DNA of 11,172 nt, taken from NCBI GenBank assembly GCA_018334855.1, contig JAGXLE010000018.1, positions 1 through 11,172 on the forward strand. The letters run 5' to 3'. The notes under the pieces are model-generated. The model saw only the letters and a list, made by a program, of their open reading frames with translations, was not told where the DNA came from and searched no databases. How positions within the stretch are numbered: the first letter of the stretch is position 1; each line of letters begins with the position of its first letter. Origin of the DNA: Desulfobacterales bacterium (lineage in GTDB: Bacteria > Desulfobacterota > Desulfobacteria > Desulfobacterales > Desulfosalsimonadaceae). Shown here piece after piece: positions 1 through 9,438 of the stretch. The translations under genes were made by a program, and so were the position numbers.

Positions 1-521
1 AGAAAATCCTGGGCAAAAAGGCGGAAAAGGTGCTCACCCCGGTCTCCGAGTACACCGGCCAGCCCGAGACCCAGGGCGGCCTGGTCAAGACCCTGGACTT
101 TAAAATCTATCTCGGCCTGCTCACAGAATCCTACAACCCGGAGCACCAAAAAGACTTGAAGCGCACCAATGCCGTGCCCATAGATATGGTGGTGGCCAAC
201 CTCTACCCGTTCCAGCAGACCATCGAGTCCGCGGATGTCACCCCGGAAAAGGCCCGGGGCAATATCGATATCGGCGGGCCCTGCATGATCCGGGCGGCTG
301 CCAAGAACTTCATCCGCGTGGCATCCGTGGTGGACCCGGCCGATTATCCCATGCTGCTCGAGGAACTCGGATCCGTGGAGAGCATGACCTCGCTGGAAAC
401 CCGGGTGAAACTGGCCAAAAAGGCGTTTTTCCACACCGCGGCCTATGATCAGGCCATTGCCAATTACCTGCGGGAAACCTCGTTTACCGACATCCAGCAG
501 GCGTACGAGGAAATCCTGTAG
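1..521 (+). CDS. purH: IMP cyclohydrolase (stand-alone PurH N-terminal domain), 5' end cut
   Basis: This gene encodes the enzyme that closes the ring of FAICAR to give IMP, the final step of de novo purine synthesis in the cytoplasm. The frame is open from base 3 and ends with TAG at 519-521, so the N-terminal part lies outside the window. An internal GTG at base 30 should not be taken as the start, because the frame stays open and PurH-like upstream of it. Family hallmarks in order are SEYTG, VKTL (lysine codon at 87-89), VANLYPF, NIDIGGP, RAAAKN, VVDPADY and HTAAYDQAIANYL. The catalytic Lys, Tyr, Asp and Lys known from human PurH (Lys66, Tyr104, Asp125, Lys137, from memory) are therefore all present. 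It is odd in two ways. The usual KTLHPKIHGG reads KTLDFKIYLG, and the protein ends after this domain instead of continuing into the transformylase. The formyltransferase is the next gene, 52 bases downstream. Confidence 0.92.
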   Translation, partial: KILGKKAEKVLTPVSEYTGQPETQGGLVKTLDFKIYLGLLTESYNPEHQKDLKRTNAVPIDMVVANLYPFQQTIESADVTPEKARGNIDIGGPCMIRAAAKNFIRVASVVDPADYPMLLEELGSVESMTSLETRVKLAKKAFFHTAAYDQAIANYLRETSFTDIQQAYEEIL

Positions 522-573
522 AAAAATCCGAAACAGGAAACAACCTGCAAACAATCCTGATGGAGTAACGGAT

Positions 574-1824
574 ATGGCCGAAGATCTCAAAAAAATGTAC
601 AAGACCATCATGGACGATCATTTTCCGCCGCGCATGGAAATCGCGTTTGTGGATGATGACTCCCGCCAGACCCTGTTTTACGAAAAGGTGGACTGGGTGA
701 TCGAGGGCGTGCGCAAAGGCCTGAGATACGGGGAAAATCCGGGCCAGGAAGCCGCCCTGTACAAACTGGTCAACGGCAACCTGGTGCTTGGAGACACCCG
801 GACCCTGGCGCCGGGCAAACACTTGGCCTCGGATGCCGAGCTGCTGCAGTCCGGCAAGCACCCGGGCAAGACCAATCTCACGGATGCGGACAATGCCTTA
901 AACATTCTCCGGTATTTTACAGAAACGCCCTGCGCGGTGATCGTCAAGCACAACAACCCCTGCGGTGCGGCCGTATCCGACACCCTGGCCGATGCTTACG
1001 AAAAAGCCTACATGGCCGACCGGGTTGCGTCATTCGGCGGATGCATCGCTGTCAACCGGCCGCTGGACAAAACCACGGCCGAGGCCGTAGCCCGGCAGTA
1101 CGCGGAAGTAATCGTGGCCCCGGAATACGAGCCGGGCGTGCTTGAGATCCTTGCCCAGCGCAAGAATCTGCGCGTGATAAAGATCGACAACATCGAGCGC
1201 CTGCAGACATACGTGGGCGAGCGCGTGGTGGAATTCAAAAGCTTGATGGACGGCGGCATCATCACCCAGTGGTCATTTGTGCCCGAAGCCCGCAGCGATT
1301 CGGATTTCAGGCTCGCAGAATGCCAATACAAGGGCGAAACCTACAGGATTAAGCGGCCGCCCACTGCCGGGGAAATGGCGGATATCCGGTTCGGCTGGCT
1401 GCTGGAATCCGGCGTGACCTCCAATTCGGTGCTCTTTGTGAAAAACGGGGTATCGGTGGGCATCGGTACCGGCGAGCAGGACCGGGTGGGCGTGGCTGAA
1501 ATCGCCCGGGACAAGGCCTACAGGAAGCTGGCCGACCGCTTCTGCTTCGAGCAGTTCCGGGTCCCGTACAATGATCTGCGGGATCAGGAACAGAAGGCCG
1601 AAATTGACCGGCAGGTCCGGGAGCAAAACGGCGACCTGATCGGGTCGACCATGGTCAGTGACGCGTTTTTCCCGTTTCGCGACGGCGTGGACGTCGGACT
1701 GCGCGAAGGGGCCACCGCAGTGGTGCACCCGGGCGGATCGTTGAACGATTACCAGTCCATTGAGGCATGCAACGAGTACAACGCCACCATGGTACTTACC
1801 GGCCAGCGCTCATTTAAGCACTAG
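574..1824 (+). CDS. purH: AICAR formyltransferase (stand-alone PurH C-terminal domain)
   Basis: This 416-residue enzyme transfers a formyl group from 10-formyl-tetrahydrofolate to AICAR, giving FAICAR for the cyclohydrolase encoded just upstream. ATG at 574 is chosen because GGAG (562-565) sits at good distance; a longer reading frame from 445 would overlap the upstream gene and has no family resemblance before 574. Visible motifs are LRYGENPGQ (residues 50-58, usually GENPHQ), the catalytic-type Lys125-His126 in VKHNNPCGAA, ADRVASFGG, ASDAFFPF-like VSDAFFPFRDGVD near the C-terminus, HPGGS and a terminal QRSFKH. These match the transformylase half of bifunctional PurH. The segment around residues 94-108 (SGKHPGKTNLTDADNAL) replaces the usual GKxLSYNNxxDADAAL. 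The N-terminal 45 residues are not seen in the fused enzyme and may act as a linker or cap. The gene is probably co-transcribed with the preceding one. Confidence 0.93.
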   Translation: MAEDLKKMYKTIMDDHFPPRMEIAFVDDDSRQTLFYEKVDWVIEGVRKGLRYGENPGQEAALYKLVNGNLVLGDTRTLAPGKHLASDAELLQSGKHPGKTNLTDADNALNILRYFTETPCAVIVKHNNPCGAAVSDTLADAYEKAYMADRVASFGGCIAVNRPLDKTTAEAVARQYAEVIVAPEYEPGVLEILAQRKNLRVIKIDNIERLQTYVGERVVEFKSLMDGGIITQWSFVPEARSDSDFRLAECQYKGETYRIKRPPTAGEMADIRFGWLLESGVTSNSVLFVKNGVSVGIGTGEQDRVGVAEIARDKAYRKLADRFCFEQFRVPYNDLRDQEQKAEIDRQVREQNGDLIGSTMVSDAFFPFRDGVDVGLREGATAVVHPGGSLNDYQSIEACNEYNATMVLTGQRSFKH

Positions 1825-1982: not shown

Positions 1983-2927
1983 TTATCGGGTTCTGATAAA
2001 ATTTGAAAACAGAACCGCGTAACCGCTGTCAAATTCGTAGAGGCTTTTTTCCGGGCGGCGGTATCCGGCAATATTTTTCGGAATTTTGCCTTCGCCCGGA
2101 TCGCTGTCTGATACGGCCTCTGTAAAGACCAGGGTAAAGCGGCCCGGCTTAAAGATTTCCATAATCTGCTCAATTTTCTGCCGGTAATCTTTCTCTGCCA
2201 CGTTGGTCTCAAAGCTTGCATATGACCCTTTTTCCTCCGGGGTGACGTGGATGGTTGCGTAATGCTGCCCCGAGATACGGTTCATTGAATAGCCGTAAGG
2301 CTCAAATATGAAACTGTCGTTGACCATTTCCGGATAGAGCCGGTTTATGCCCGTGCGCGCCTCAATATCGGCGGATTTTTCCCCGGACTTCGGGATAAAA
2401 GCCCTGAGTACGGAAGGGTCAAGGTCGTGCATGAGGATTTCCAGTGTCTCGTCTTCTTCCTCTTCCTGTATTGTTTCCGGGCCTGCGGAGGAGGCGTAGA
2501 AAATGTGGACGTGATCGTGGTTGGCAGGGCCGAGCCTGTAGCTTTTGCCCCTGAAGTGCTCTGCAAGCCTGTCCACGTCTGCTTCAAAATCCGAGCTTTG
2601 GGCCTGAGGATACATCAGGTTTTTGCGTTCATAGAAGAAAAAGGCGATCCGGTCGCGTCTTATTGTCCGGATCAGTTCCGGCACGGCCTTTACCAGGGTG
2701 GTTTTGCCGCAGGTGATCATCAGTACACGGTCCGGCCACACAAAAAGGCTTGATTCCGAGAGCAGGTATGCATCCATGTCTTGCGAGGAAATGCGGCTTA
2801 CTATCTCTGCACCGCTTGCACGTACAACCGCCCCCCACCTGCCGTCCACATTGGAGCGGAGATCGGCATCAGGTTCGGCAAGTATCATCTCCAGCTTTTT
2901 TTCCGGACCTTCAAATTCCATGGCCAT
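1983..2927 (-). CDS. speD: S-adenosylmethionine decarboxylase, eukaryotic type (pyruvoyl enzyme)
   Basis: This 314-residue protein resembles human and plant AdoMet decarboxylase, which makes the aminopropyl donor for spermidine. ATG at 2927 is chosen because AAGGA lies 5 bases upstream and the product then begins MAMEFEGPEKKLE, matching the eukaryotic N-terminus with its conserved glutamates. Key features are the self-cleavage site LSE/SSLFV (Glu58/Ser59, giving the pyruvoyl group), catalytic Cys73 in ITCGKT, FFFYERKN (97-103), TLEILMHDLDPSV (161-173), Ser214 in GYSMN, His227 in TIHVTPE and SFETN (238-242). The C-terminus, IAGYRRPEKSLYEF...VLFSNF, also matches the eukaryotic family. Human counterparts, from memory, are Ser68, Cys82, Ser229 and His243. 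Typical bacterial SpeD proteins are much shorter and lack this duplicated fold. The lysine just before the catalytic cysteine in human (Lys80) is Ile71 here. No spermidine synthase gene is nearby. The gene converges with the purine genes and appears monocistronic. Confidence 0.93.
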   Translation of the reverse strand: MAMEFEGPEKKLEMILAEPDADLRSNVDGRWGAVVRASGAEIVSRISSQDMDAYLLSESSLFVWPDRVLMITCGKTTLVKAVPELIRTIRRDRIAFFFYERKNLMYPQAQSSDFEADVDRLAEHFRGKSYRLGPANHDHVHIFYASSAGPETIQEEEEDETLEILMHDLDPSVLRAFIPKSGEKSADIEARTGINRLYPEMVNDSFIFEPYGYSMNRISGQHYATIHVTPEEKGSYASFETNVAEKDYRQKIEQIMEIFKPGRFTLVFTEAVSDSDPGEGKIPKNIAGYRRPEKSLYEFDSGYAVLFSNFIRTR

Positions 2928-2974
2928 ATGATTCCTTGTATAGCAACAGTGAAATTCATTGAAATAATACAAAT

Positions 2975-3649: not shown

Positions 3650-5203
3650 GTGCAGATTCGATTCTACGGAGCGGTACGGGAAGTCACAGGGTCTATGCAC
3701 ATGCTGGAAACCGAAGAAGACCGGATTCTGCTTGACTGCGGAATGTTTCAGGGCCGGCGCAAAGAGGCGGACCGGAAAAACCGGGTTATGCCGTTTGATC
3801 CTTCGATTATTGCCAACATGGTGCTCTCTCACGCACATATTGATCATTCGGGACGGATTCCGCTTCTTATAAACAGGGGTTTTACAGGGCAGGTATTCTG
3901 TACCCGTGCTACTGCCGATGCCTGCGGATACTTGCTGCCCGACTGCGCTCATATACAGGAATCAGACGCTGACTACCTCAATTACAAGCGCGTGCGTGAA
4001 TCAGTGGCGGATCTGACCGGCAAAAGCAGGGAGGAGATTAAAAGAAAGCTCAAGCAAAACGGGCGAACCGACCCCGAGGCTGTAGAAAGATACATAAACC
4101 GCTATGGGCTTGAAAAGATCGAGCCGCTGTATACCTCCGAAAATGCGGAACAGGCGCTTGCCCATTTTGCAGGCCAGCCCTATAAAAGTCCGGTGACCGT
4201 CGGCAGGGGCATGGAATGCGTGTTCTACGATGCCGGACATATTCTGGGTTCTGCAATAACCATGATCCGTGCAAAGGACCAGGGACATACCTTAAATATC
4301 TGTTATACCGGCGATATCGGCCGGTTTGACAAGCCCATCATATGCGACCCCGAGCTGCGGTTCGAAGAAGAGGACCGCGATGTTGACCTGATGCTCATGG
4401 AAAGCACCTACGGCGACCGTATCCATGATCCTGTACAGGACATGACCCCCCAACTGAAACAGATTATAACCGAGACAGTCGAGCGCGGCGGAACCCTGCT
4501 GATACCGGCCTTTGCCTTCGGCCGCACCCAGGAGCTCCTCTATGCCATCCACGATCTCTATAACGACAACGAGGTGCCAAAAGTCCCCATTTACGTGGAC
4601 AGCCCTCTTGCCACCAGGATTACCAGGGTCTACGGCGAACATCCGGAGGTTTATGACAGGCAGACCCACAGGGATTTTTTAAAGGATGGAATGAACCCCT
4701 TCATGTTCGACCATCTTCATTTCACCGAGTCGGTAGAGGATTCCATGGCTCTTATGCGTGAAGAAAAGCCCCATATAGTACTTTCGGCCTCGGGAATGTG
4801 TGAAGGCGGCCGGATACTGCATCATCTGCGCTATAAGATACACAATGAAAAAAACACCATTCTTATAGTGGGCTACATGGCCGCCCATACCCTGGGCCGC
4901 AGGCTGCTGGAGAAGGGCCTGGAATACGAGGAAAACGGCCGTAAGGGAGAGCCGCCCATGATGCGGTTTATGAACAAGGAGTATCCGTTAAAGGCAAGGC
5001 TTAAAAGCCTGGAGGGATTTTCCGCGCATGCGGACAGAAACGAGATGCTCAGATTTCTCAGGGAATCCAATCTCAGGGTAAAGCAAATCGCCCTGGTCCA
5101 CGGGGAAGAAGACCAGATGGACTCTTTTGCCCAAACCCTGAAGGCAGAAGGCTATAAGGTGCTTGTGCCCAGGGCGGGCGAGAGCCTGAGAATTCGCGGT
5201 TAG
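3650..5203 (+). CDS. Beta-CASP metallo-beta-lactamase RNase (CPSF73/YSH1-like, COG1236)
   Basis: This 517-residue predicted zinc-dependent ribonuclease is of the family that includes CPSF73, archaeal aCPSF and bacterial RNA-processing exonucleases. The start is GTG at 3650, supported by AAGGA (3639-3643) six bases upstream. Metal-binding motifs are Asp29 (LLDCG), HAHIDH (61-66), His197 (DAGHILGS) and Asp222 (GDIG). The beta-CASP domain is seen from ESTYGDR (251-257), with PAFAFGRTQE (286-295), SGMCEGGRILHHL (381-393) and FSAHAD (457-462), and a final VHGEE (483-487). All catalytic positions appear intact. Residues 100-165 carry an inserted charged helical segment (DADYLNYKRVRE..., KSREEIKRKLKQNGR) found in many bacterial COG1236 members between the first metal motif and the rest of the lactamase domain. 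The substrate is not predictable. The gene converges with the FAD dehydrogenase, with only 38 bases between their stops. Confidence 0.9.
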   Translation: MQIRFYGAVREVTGSMHMLETEEDRILLDCGMFQGRRKEADRKNRVMPFDPSIIANMVLSHAHIDHSGRIPLLINRGFTGQVFCTRATADACGYLLPDCAHIQESDADYLNYKRVRESVADLTGKSREEIKRKLKQNGRTDPEAVERYINRYGLEKIEPLYTSENAEQALAHFAGQPYKSPVTVGRGMECVFYDAGHILGSAITMIRAKDQGHTLNICYTGDIGRFDKPIICDPELRFEEEDRDVDLMLMESTYGDRIHDPVQDMTPQLKQIITETVERGGTLLIPAFAFGRTQELLYAIHDLYNDNEVPKVPIYVDSPLATRITRVYGEHPEVYDRQTHRDFLKDGMNPFMFDHLHFTESVEDSMALMREEKPHIVLSASGMCEGGRILHHLRYKIHNEKNTILIVGYMAAHTLGRRLLEKGLEYEENGRKGEPPMMRFMNKEYPLKARLKSLEGFSAHADRNEMLRFLRESNLRVKQIALVHGEEDQMDSFAQTLKAEGYKVLVPRAGESLRIRG

Positions 5204-7695: not shown

Positions 7696-8154
7696 ATGTT
7701 CAGGGGAAGTTCATATCACACTATCGATGCCAAGGGCCGTATCAACATACCCTCACGGTTCAGGGAGCTGATCCGGAATAACGGGGGAAACGGCCTTGTG
7801 GTATCCGGTCCCGGTCTCGATGAAAAAGGCCTGGTCGCCTATCCCTATAAAAGCTGGGAGAAGGTGGAGGAGAAAATTCTGCAAATGGCTGAAAAAAGTC
7901 CGGCCATGCGCAGGTTCAGGCGTATTTTCATCGGTGAGTCATCCGAGTGCCCCATTGATAAGCAGGGCCGTATCCTTCTTCCGCAGTCTTTGAGAGATTA
8001 TGCAAGCCTTGAAAAAGATATCGTGTTGGTCGGCGTTCTTGATCATTTTGAGATCTGGTCTCTGGAAAACTGGAATGAGGAGAAGCGCAGACTGCATGAA
8101 GAGGATATGAAAGATGAGGAGGTTTCCAACGAAATTGCCAGACTAGGGCTGTAA
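7696..8154 (+). CDS. mraZ: Transcriptional regulator MraZ
   Basis: This 152-residue protein has the two tandem AbrB-like (SpoVT-AbrB) half-domains of MraZ, each with the signature DxxGR: DAKGRINIPSRFR (11-23) and DKQGRILLPQSLR (88-100). MraZ proteins form ring-shaped oligomers that bind repeated GTGGG-type boxes upstream of their own gene and repress the division and cell-wall operon. The length is usual for the family. It opens MFRGSSYHTIDAKGR, and a purine-rich GGGAGAGGG sits directly before the ATG, overlapping the operator. The charged C-terminus (EEKRRLHEEDMKDEEVSNEIARLGL) is a typical terminal helix. It is followed after three bases by rsmH. Confidence 0.97.
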   Translation: MFRGSSYHTIDAKGRINIPSRFRELIRNNGGNGLVVSGPGLDEKGLVAYPYKSWEKVEEKILQMAEKSPAMRRFRRIFIGESSECPIDKQGRILLPQSLRDYASLEKDIVLVGVLDHFEIWSLENWNEEKRRLHEEDMKDEEVSNEIARLGL

Positions 8155-8157
8155 ACC

Positions 8158-9099
8158 ATGGCTTTTCGACATGTTCCCGTAATGCGCGAGGAAGCGATTC
8201 AGTACCTGAATTGCGCGCCCGGAAAACGGGTTGTCGACTCTACGCTCGGCGGCGCCGGGCATGCCATGGCAGTAGTGAAAAAAATTCTCCCCGGCGGATT
8301 GTTTATAGGCATTGACCGGGATGCCGGTGCCGTGGAAAATGCACGGAGGCAGCTGGCGGCATATGCCGAAAATGTCCGCCTTGTTCATGATAATTTTGTC
8401 AACCTTTCCCATATCCTCTTGCAGCTTGAAATAGACTCTGTTGATGCGATTCTTGCTGATCTGGGGCTTTCTTTCGATCAAATCGAGTCTTCGGGCAGGG
8501 GTTTTTCTTTTAGAAAGGATGAGCCCCTCGACATGCGGATGGATACGCAAAATACCGAAACCGCGGCAGACATTGTCAATAAAGCCGGGGTAAAGCGTTT
8601 GACCCGGATTTTTAAGGACCTGGGAGAAGAGCGATGGGCGGGCCGTATTTCGAAAAAAATCGGGGAAAAAAGAAAGACATCTCCGATAGAAACCACCGGC
8701 CAGCTGGCCGAAATAATACGCGGGGCCATTCCCGGCAAAGAGGCTGCCAGGCGCAGGATACACCCGGCTACCAAGGCGTTTATGGCCCTTCGCATCGAGG
8801 TAAACCGCGAACTCGAGGCGCTTGACTCGTTCCTAAATGATGCGGTTGAGCATTTAAAGCCCGGGGGTCGCATATGCGTGATATCGTTTCATTCCCTGGA
8901 GGACAGGATCGTTAAGCACAGGTTCAATGAATTTGCGCGCGGCTGCGAGTGTCCGCGGGATTTTCCGGTGTGTGTCTGCGGCAAAAAGCCCGTGCTCAGG
9001 GTCCTGACCAGAAAAATACGGCGTCCTTCGCAAGAGGAAACCCTGGAAAATCCTATGTCGCGAAGCGCCAGACTTCGGGCGGCCGAAAAATTGCAGTAG
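8158..9099 (+). CDS. rsmH: 16S rRNA (cytosine1402-N4)-methyltransferase RsmH
   Basis: This 313-residue SAM-dependent enzyme methylates N4 of C1402 in 16S rRNA in the ribosomal P site. Visible motifs are the N-terminal FRHVPVMREEAI, the SAM-binding VVDSTLGGAGHA (25-36), GIDRDAGAVENA, ADLGLSFDQIE, GFSFRKDEPLDMRMD, IHPATKAFMALRIEVNREL, PGGRICVISFHSLEDRIVK and the C-terminal ENPMSRSARLRAAEKL. The CECPRDFPVCVCGKKP cysteine segment is also seen in other family members. Length is normal. ATG at 8158 lies three bases after the mraZ stop with only a weak AGGG upstream (inside mraZ), so translation is probably coupled to mraZ. Confidence 0.97.
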   Translation: MAFRHVPVMREEAIQYLNCAPGKRVVDSTLGGAGHAMAVVKKILPGGLFIGIDRDAGAVENARRQLAAYAENVRLVHDNFVNLSHILLQLEIDSVDAILADLGLSFDQIESSGRGFSFRKDEPLDMRMDTQNTETAADIVNKAGVKRLTRIFKDLGEERWAGRISKKIGEKRKTSPIETTGQLAEIIRGAIPGKEAARRRIHPATKAFMALRIEVNRELEALDSFLNDAVEHLKPGGRICVISFHSLEDRIVKHRFNEFARGCECPRDFPVCVCGKKPVLRVLTRKIRRPSQEETLENPMSRSARLRAAEKLQ

Positions 9100-9132
9100 A
9101 AGGCCAAAGTTTCATGCGACCGGGAGTATTAA

Positions 9133-9438
9133 ATGACTGCCAACAAAAAATCCACCCAGCCTGTATTGACTCCGAGGAGAATTTCAGCCGGCATCATTCT
9201 GGTGCTGGCGCTGGTGGCCGAAGTGTTTTTCGACACCTGGTGCGGGGTGCAATGCAGGCGGACGGGCTATGAGATTGTAGAGGCACAGTCCCGGCAGGAA
9301 GAGCTTTTAGAGACCCGCAAGAAACTGCGGATTGAACGGGGACGGCTTAAGTCACCTCAGATTCTGGGGGCGCGGGCCAGGGATGAGCTGGGCCTTATCA
9401 CCCCGAAACCGGAACAGATAGTTATTATACGGCAATGA
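9133..9438 (+). CDS. ftsL: Cell division protein FtsL
   Basis: This 101-residue bitopic inner-membrane protein has a short cytoplasmic N-terminus, one transmembrane helix (about 17-33, RISAGIILVLALVAEVFF), and then a periplasmic region with heptad-like spacing (EIVEAQSRQEELLETRKKL) that should form a coiled coil. The end, ARARDELGLITPKPEQIVII, is the typical FtsL tail (...A...LGL..P....V). FtsL sequences are poorly conserved, so the call rests on size, topology, tail motif and position between rsmH and ftsI. FtsL works with FtsB and FtsQ to recruit and activate FtsW-FtsI at the septum. GGGAG (9121-9125) precedes the ATG by seven bases. The stop overlaps the ftsI start (ATGA). Confidence 0.88.
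   Translation: MTANKKSTQPVLTPRRISAGIILVLALVAEVFFDTWCGVQCRRTGYEIVEAQSRQEELLETRKKLRIERGRLKSPQILGARARDELGLITPKPEQIVIIRQ

Follow-up and report, generated by a model that had tools for sequence, protein, structure and literature searches.

Eukaryotic-type AdoMet decarboxylase gene in a bacterial chromosome

How a eukaryotic-type S-adenosylmethionine (AdoMet) decarboxylase came to be encoded in a bacterium of the Desulfobacterales, and what it does there, is the question raised by the stretch of 11,172 nucleotides analysed here, hereafter the window, which belongs to a metagenome-assembled genome (MAG). A sequence-only reading of this DNA had placed an open reading frame (ORF) of 314 residues at positions 1983..2927 and had assigned it to this enzyme family on the basis of a set of motifs. 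The coordinates were right, and the gene was found to lie on the minus strand, the plus-strand frame over the same interval being interrupted by stops. All the motifs that had been quoted were present in the protein, and the proposed ribosome-binding sequence, AAGGA (2933..2937, minus strand), is separated by 5 bases from the ATG at position 2927.

Profile searches with the 314-aa protein agreed with the proposed assignment, as PF01536 was the sole Pfam family retrieved (E 1.7e-83; 281 bits vs a cut-off of 22.2), with a full-length match spanning profile positions 3 to 342 of 343. The NCBIfam equivalog TIGR00535 was matched over nearly its full length at 207.2 bits, below its cut-off of 233.15; this bars the equivalog label and leaves membership of PF01536 intact. 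The human AdoMet decarboxylase (AdoMetDC) proenzyme (1msv) was the top match among solved structures (4.4e-48), and the bit score of the window's protein against the human enzyme was 169, the potato enzyme scoring 169 or 153 against the human one depending on direction. No match to the class 1 SpeD family (PF02675) was obtained for the protein. These results, together with the motifs, indicate that the window's gene is a real gene encoding a class 2 (eukaryotic-type) AdoMetDC proenzyme.

Contamination by eukaryotic DNA, already held unlikely from the letters of the window, was ruled out because the neighbours are bacterial, with all seven of the neighbouring ORFs scanned matching families usual in bacteria, and because the neighbourhood recurs in relatives. 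Scanning for promoters and terminators near the decarboxylase gene gave a number of sites not above that of shuffled sequences, and no RNA families or tRNAs were found in the window.

Predicted processing and conserved residues

Alignment to human AdoMetDC, with cleavage taken over from the family, predicts that the proenzyme would cut itself between Glu58 and Ser59 (2751..2756, minus strand). The products would be a beta chain of residues 1-58 (2754..2927, minus strand), with Glu6, Glu9, Glu13 and Glu58, and an alpha chain of residues 59-314 (1986..2753, minus strand), which carries Cys73, Ser214 and His227, corresponding to human Cys82, Ser229 and His243. Ser59 (human Ser68) would be turned into the pyruvoyl cofactor, and AdoMet would then be decarboxylated to yield the aminopropyl donor. 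The protein has the processing serine of class 2 enzymes (Ser59) as well as their catalytic cysteine (Cys73), serine (Ser214), histidine (His227) and glutamates (Glu6, Glu9 and Glu58).

The residue alignment contained 25 eukaryotic rows and 186 bacterial rows, the latter made up of 66 proteins from loci (53 of them different) and 120 proteins from searches, the window's own included, with near copies among them. Equivalents of the pyruvoyl serine, Cys82, Phe223, Ser229 and His243 occur in all 186 bacterial rows (near copies included), and the human row has Ala at position 68, the crystal sequence presumably being that of a processing-site mutant. The putrescine site of the human enzyme, which consists of Glu15, Asp174, Glu178 and Glu256 and is partly absent from plant enzymes, has all four acids in the window's protein (Glu13, Asp159, Glu163 and Glu240), from which putrescine activation is predicted. 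At these four positions the 186 bacterial rows have, respectively, Glu (181), Asp (180), Glu (103) or Gln (81), and Glu (185), and potato has Val at the Asp174 position. We infer cleavage, activity and putrescine activation of the window's protein. Bacterial class 2 enzymes have reportedly been found functional by Li in 2019.

Eukaryotic class 2 enzymes differ from the bacterial rows as a block at three positions. At the Lys80 position, 185 of the 186 bacterial rows have Ile, as does T. brucei, and the remaining 24 eukaryotic rows have Lys. Glu is found at the Ser113 position in 184 and Thr at the Phe285 position in 183 of the bacterial rows.

Distribution of the class 2 gene and replacement of SpeD

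The window's genome, a 62% complete MAG in 287 contigs, contains one PF01536 gene. A survey for a second, short SpeD, which the sequence-only reading had proposed, detected no PF02675 protein in this incomplete MAG. PF01536 was present in 49 of 389 genomes and 33 of 150 genera in a sample of the order (Desulfobacterales-like genomes, so called after their named relatives), in two of 395 genomes of a phylum sample, both from the window's genus, and, above the cut-off, in one of 344 genomes of a Spirochaete sample, this being the centre genome of the sample itself. Scanning of named genomes yielded 16 loci, 12 from Desulfobacterales or Desulfobacteraceae and four from Spirochaetes. A protein search retrieved 5216 relatives, and among the best 120 of these the organism names were bacterial where given, that is, in a minority of cases. 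The suggestion of a little-known bacterial branch holds as far as the branch goes; it is neither isolated nor unknown, given its presence in 49 of the 389 genomes, the chromosomal position that it retains across several families, and the bacterial class 2 enzymes already reported in PMC10407285.

Mobile carriage of the class 2 gene was also considered and rejected, the searched collections of phages, plasmids and viral contigs having yielded no PF01536 match. PMC9992855 reports no class 2 enzyme in viruses by BLASTP and PSI-BLAST. One genome bin (G688) carries two class 2 copies (L071 and L108), which, because both adjoin the same neighbour gene, probably represent two strains in one bin rather than paralogues.

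PF02675 was found in 149 of the 389 genomes of the order. Only two of the 49 genomes with PF01536 (G399 and G529) have both families, against 18.8 expected (Fisher 4.7e-9, uncorrected for kinship), and the count by genus was two shared vs 12.5 expected (4.6e-6; shared genera counted by hand, kinship uncorrected). At the level of families there is no exclusion, since both occur in eight families, the hand-made lists numbering 24 and 30, and this counts against replacement. The order's class 1b SpeD proteins and its SpeD-SpeDC fusions resemble the class 2 enzymes in being pyruvoyl AdoMet decarboxylases that are also paired with SpeE, and differ from them in family (PF02675), in locus and in the type of SpeE. 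In three SpeD loci (L116, L117 and L120), frames of 429-472 aa contain a class 1 SpeD domain followed by SpeE, and the two are likely fused.

A conserved locus with a bacterial-type SpeE

Analysis of 50 class 2 loci, one of them a fragment, revealed SpeE downstream of the decarboxylase gene, on the same strand and within 1 kb, in at least 33. The partner of the enzyme would be this bacterial-type spermidine synthase, which adjoins the gene in most relatives. Against a general pairing count the six of 27 loci with no SpeE match beside the gene (L030, L056, L065, L066, L068 and L069) and the window's genus, where, among the matches listed, SpeE was adjacent in only one (G705) of nine genomes. 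The SpeE proteins of class 2 loci and genomes form a single type that shares 56-97% identity with the G556 protein, itself typed as SpeE by NCBIfam; those beside SpeD, in 20 loci chosen for such a pair, are 34.7-41.4% identical to it. The solved structures nearest to the G556 protein by sequence are 1inl and 1iy9, from T. maritima and B. subtilis, respectively, so that the partner does not look eukaryotic. The window-type enzymes share with eukaryotic class 2 AdoMetDCs (human AMD1, potato, T. brucei) the full-length PF01536 domain, the catalytic residues and the processing site, but differ from them in that the bacterial gene adjoins a bacterial-type SpeE.

The gene order in the window's family is ftsL-rsmH-mraZ, a metallo-beta-lactamase/beta-CASP (MBL) protein, the decarboxylase, SpeE and a purH pair, with extra genes between them in some loci. 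In the window, the MBL protein is encoded at 3650..5203 (plus strand) and adjoins the decarboxylase in eight of the 11 loci fetched from the family, and mraZ, rsmH (mraW) and an ftsL-like gene form the start of a division cluster at 7696..9438 (plus strand), which several other families also have close to the decarboxylase. Outside the window's family, the mraZ cluster and/or purH was found in nine of 18 fetched loci and seven of 14 families, several of the contigs being short. Neither mraZ nor purH was found at any of 20 fetched SpeD loci (three on contigs under 5 kb). The class 2 gene looks like an old resident of the order, an age that we infer because it is rarely found with SpeD, mostly precedes SpeE and has kept the mraZ/purH locus across families.

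The split purH pair of the window (3..1824, plus strand) comprises an IMP cyclohydrolase piece, whose frame stays open over bases 3 to 521, and an AICAR transformylase ORF (445-1824). The two parts of purH are separate in all 17 of the relatives' loci compared, in different frames in 11 and in the same frame with intervening stops in six. In the window the pair is convergent with the decarboxylase and inverted relative to relatives; in G573 and others, purH and the decarboxylase run in the same direction with SpeE between them. SpeE directly precedes the purH pair in five of seven loci of the genus for which SpeE was retrieved together with flanking sequence; the remaining two have a contig end less than 0.6 kb from SpeE. 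The simplest reading would be an inversion of SpeE and purH that left SpeE just beyond the start of the window's contig, with misassembly as a possible alternative.

The polyamine pathway in the window's genus

The spermidine synthase that had been proposed for survey was found in the genus and not in the window's genome: searches of eight other genomes of the genus gave a strong SpeE match in each, in one case a partial match at the end of a contig, and no canonical SpeE was detected in the 62% complete MAG, a result that is counted against the proposed role of the decarboxylase. What this genome does encode, on contig C79, is a 700-aa membrane protein (L082, 577-2679) with a weak SpeE-like part. 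As this protein was the only SpeE-like one found there, and as a polyamine-independent role of AdoMetDC has reportedly been published, the decarboxylase of the window's species might feed an aminopropylation other than that of spermidine through it. We consider this very unlikely in view of the strong SpeE matches in the sister genomes, the incompleteness of the MAG, whose contig ends where SpeE would be expected, and the score of the membrane protein against the MFS_SpdSyn model (30.8), which is below the cut-off of 40. Frames of 708-1178 residues resembling this membrane protein are also present in G134, G556, G618, G705 and G714.

Regarding the origin of putrescine, a pyruvoyl arginine decarboxylase gene (PvlArgDC, PF01862) lies beside an arginase-family (SpeB-like) gene in nine of 11 genomes, the window's genome included, and neither gene was found in G673 and G714. 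The only PF02784 protein found in the window's genome looks LysA-like, with a score of 291.7 bits that narrowly misses the cut-off of 297.9. Because the PF01862 and SpeB-like pair is present and the sole PF02784 protein is LysA-like, the route likely leads from arginine through agmatine to putrescine, by means of the pyruvoyl arginine decarboxylase and an agmatinase, and on to spermidine; both decarboxylations would then be pyruvoyl-dependent.

Inheritance within the order

The decarboxylase was compared with RpoB in 26 genomes. Imposing the RpoB topology on the decarboxylase alignment cost 61 log units and was rejected by the AU test (0.0096; SH 0.32); ten shuffles of all labels cost 547-859, and 20 in which only labels outside the window's family were shuffled cost 162-263. 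Five of 23 splits were common to RpoB and the decarboxylase (mean 0.23 and maximum 3 in 1000 shuffles). The correlation between the distances of the two proteins was weak (r 0.25, p 0.033, 26 genomes), and it disappeared when the window's family was removed (r 0.07, p 0.34) and when Spirochaetes were included (r 0.08, p 0.24). We read these data as mostly vertical inheritance in the order with some exchange, for which synteny is a stronger argument than RpoB. A common, vertically inherited bacterial family had been named as the outcome that would speak against the sequence-only reading, and the data agree with it in part, within one order, where the gene is present in only a minority of genomes and the RpoB topology is rejected. 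The gene would have resided long in the order, with mainly vertical passage, many losses and some transfer, for instance to Spirochaetes.

That last transfer is likely because the Spirochaete sequences nest in the window's family while RpoB is far away: in three of the four Spirochaete genomes RpoB is at distances of 0.69-0.72 from that of four genomes of the window's genus and of 0.07-0.09 from each other. Mixed bins are a possible alternative. In the four Spirochaete MAG loci (L042, L044, L045 and L046) the class 2 gene and SpeE occur as a pair, and no match to the mraZ/purH neighbours was found in the stretches examined.

Altogether, taking the family assignment, the residues, the co-occurrence data, the synteny and the pathway genes, it is highly probable that these bacteria use a functional class 2 AdoMet decarboxylase in place of the SpeD usual in bacteria, and that its gene has been resident for long and passed on mostly vertically.

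Origin of the class 2 gene

The tree comprised 69 rows, 44 bacterial (34 from loci and 10 from proteins, out of 65 left by thinning at 72% identity) and 25 eukaryotic. The latter were hand-picked and include human, potato and T. brucei; nine of the 25 are metagenome proteins called eukaryotic by their place, and the yeast row is a sequence assumed to be correct. Bacteria and eukaryotes fell on opposite sides of one branch with support of 100/99 (bootstrap not fully settled). A quick tree from which T. brucei, yeast and three bacterial rows that were long or odd had been removed still gave this split a support of 100. The long branch of T. brucei was placed beside the bacterial stem (88/95), and its placement with the plant-and-algae group was not rejected (AU 0.36). 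No eukaryotic donor group was found in this tree, where protists are thinly sampled. Being unrooted, the tree points to neither direction of transfer; the ancient transfer suggested earlier is possible, and the tree provides neither its direction nor its donor.

SpeD-SpeDC fusions were tried as an outgroup for rooting and rejected, the profiles being too far apart. In the weak profile match (probability 14-17), the N-terminal SpeD segment GVSGVV...FTVHAWPE aligns with the C-terminal class 2 segment GYS...TIHVTPE, an arrangement in line with a two-domain origin.

The class 2 enzyme is, to our knowledge, near-universal in eukaryotes, and in the prokaryote samples searched it is confined to one order and a few Spirochaetes. 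This contrast argues for a single ancient transfer from a eukaryote into the order, where the gene was then kept, and a eukaryotic source is also what the available part of PMC10407285 states, citing a paper from 2019. Set against it are the 100/99 separation, with the bacterial rows within no sampled eukaryotic group, and the missing donor lineage under thin protist sampling, so that we hold this published view to be only somewhat better than even. The same placement on separate sides of the tree, together with a locus kept in several families, would suit the converse, in which the bacterial enzyme is older and eukaryotes took class 2 from an ancestor of the sulfate-reducing order. The order also contains two-domain SpeD-SpeDC fusions, proposed as class 2 precursors in the accessible text of PMC10407285, and ORFs of this type, as judged by length and similarity, measured 264-319 aa. 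Nevertheless, the distribution within the phylum is narrow, and profile comparison of the fusions gave a probability of 16.6 with bacterial and 13.7 with eukaryotic class 2, which is no clear sign that they are closer to the former; we regard a bacterial origin as unlikely. That Desulfobacterales had class 2 before eukaryotes did, and that the eukaryotic enzyme descends from a sulfate-reducer lineage, appears quite unlikely to us; if true, such descent would match a prediction of the syntrophic origin of eukaryotes.

Relation to earlier work and meaning

The window's gene encodes an enzyme of a known kind, whose occurrence in so unexpected a place had been noted before. According to the part of PMC10407285 (Li et al. 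2023) that is available, some bacteria encode class 2 AdoMetDC that was gained from a eukaryotic donor; these proteins are like those described here in being eukaryotic-type enzymes in bacteria, and differ in that neither the conserved locus nor the replacement of SpeD is described in that part of the article. The accessible parts of PMC11999265, PMC11107197 and PMC12803844 do not mention bacterial class 2 enzymes. In the literature searched, represented partly by incomplete texts and covering few subscription journals, no description was found of the conserved locus, the replacement of SpeD or the non-nesting in sampled eukaryotes.

With an old-looking bacterial clade that has kept its locus in several families, stands in for SpeD and lies outside the sampled eukaryotes, the direction of the transfer becomes a testable question. 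Moreover, these enzymes, encoded without introns and altered at the putrescine site (Lys80 to Ile, Ser113 to Glu), can be compared with those of humans and trypanosomes.
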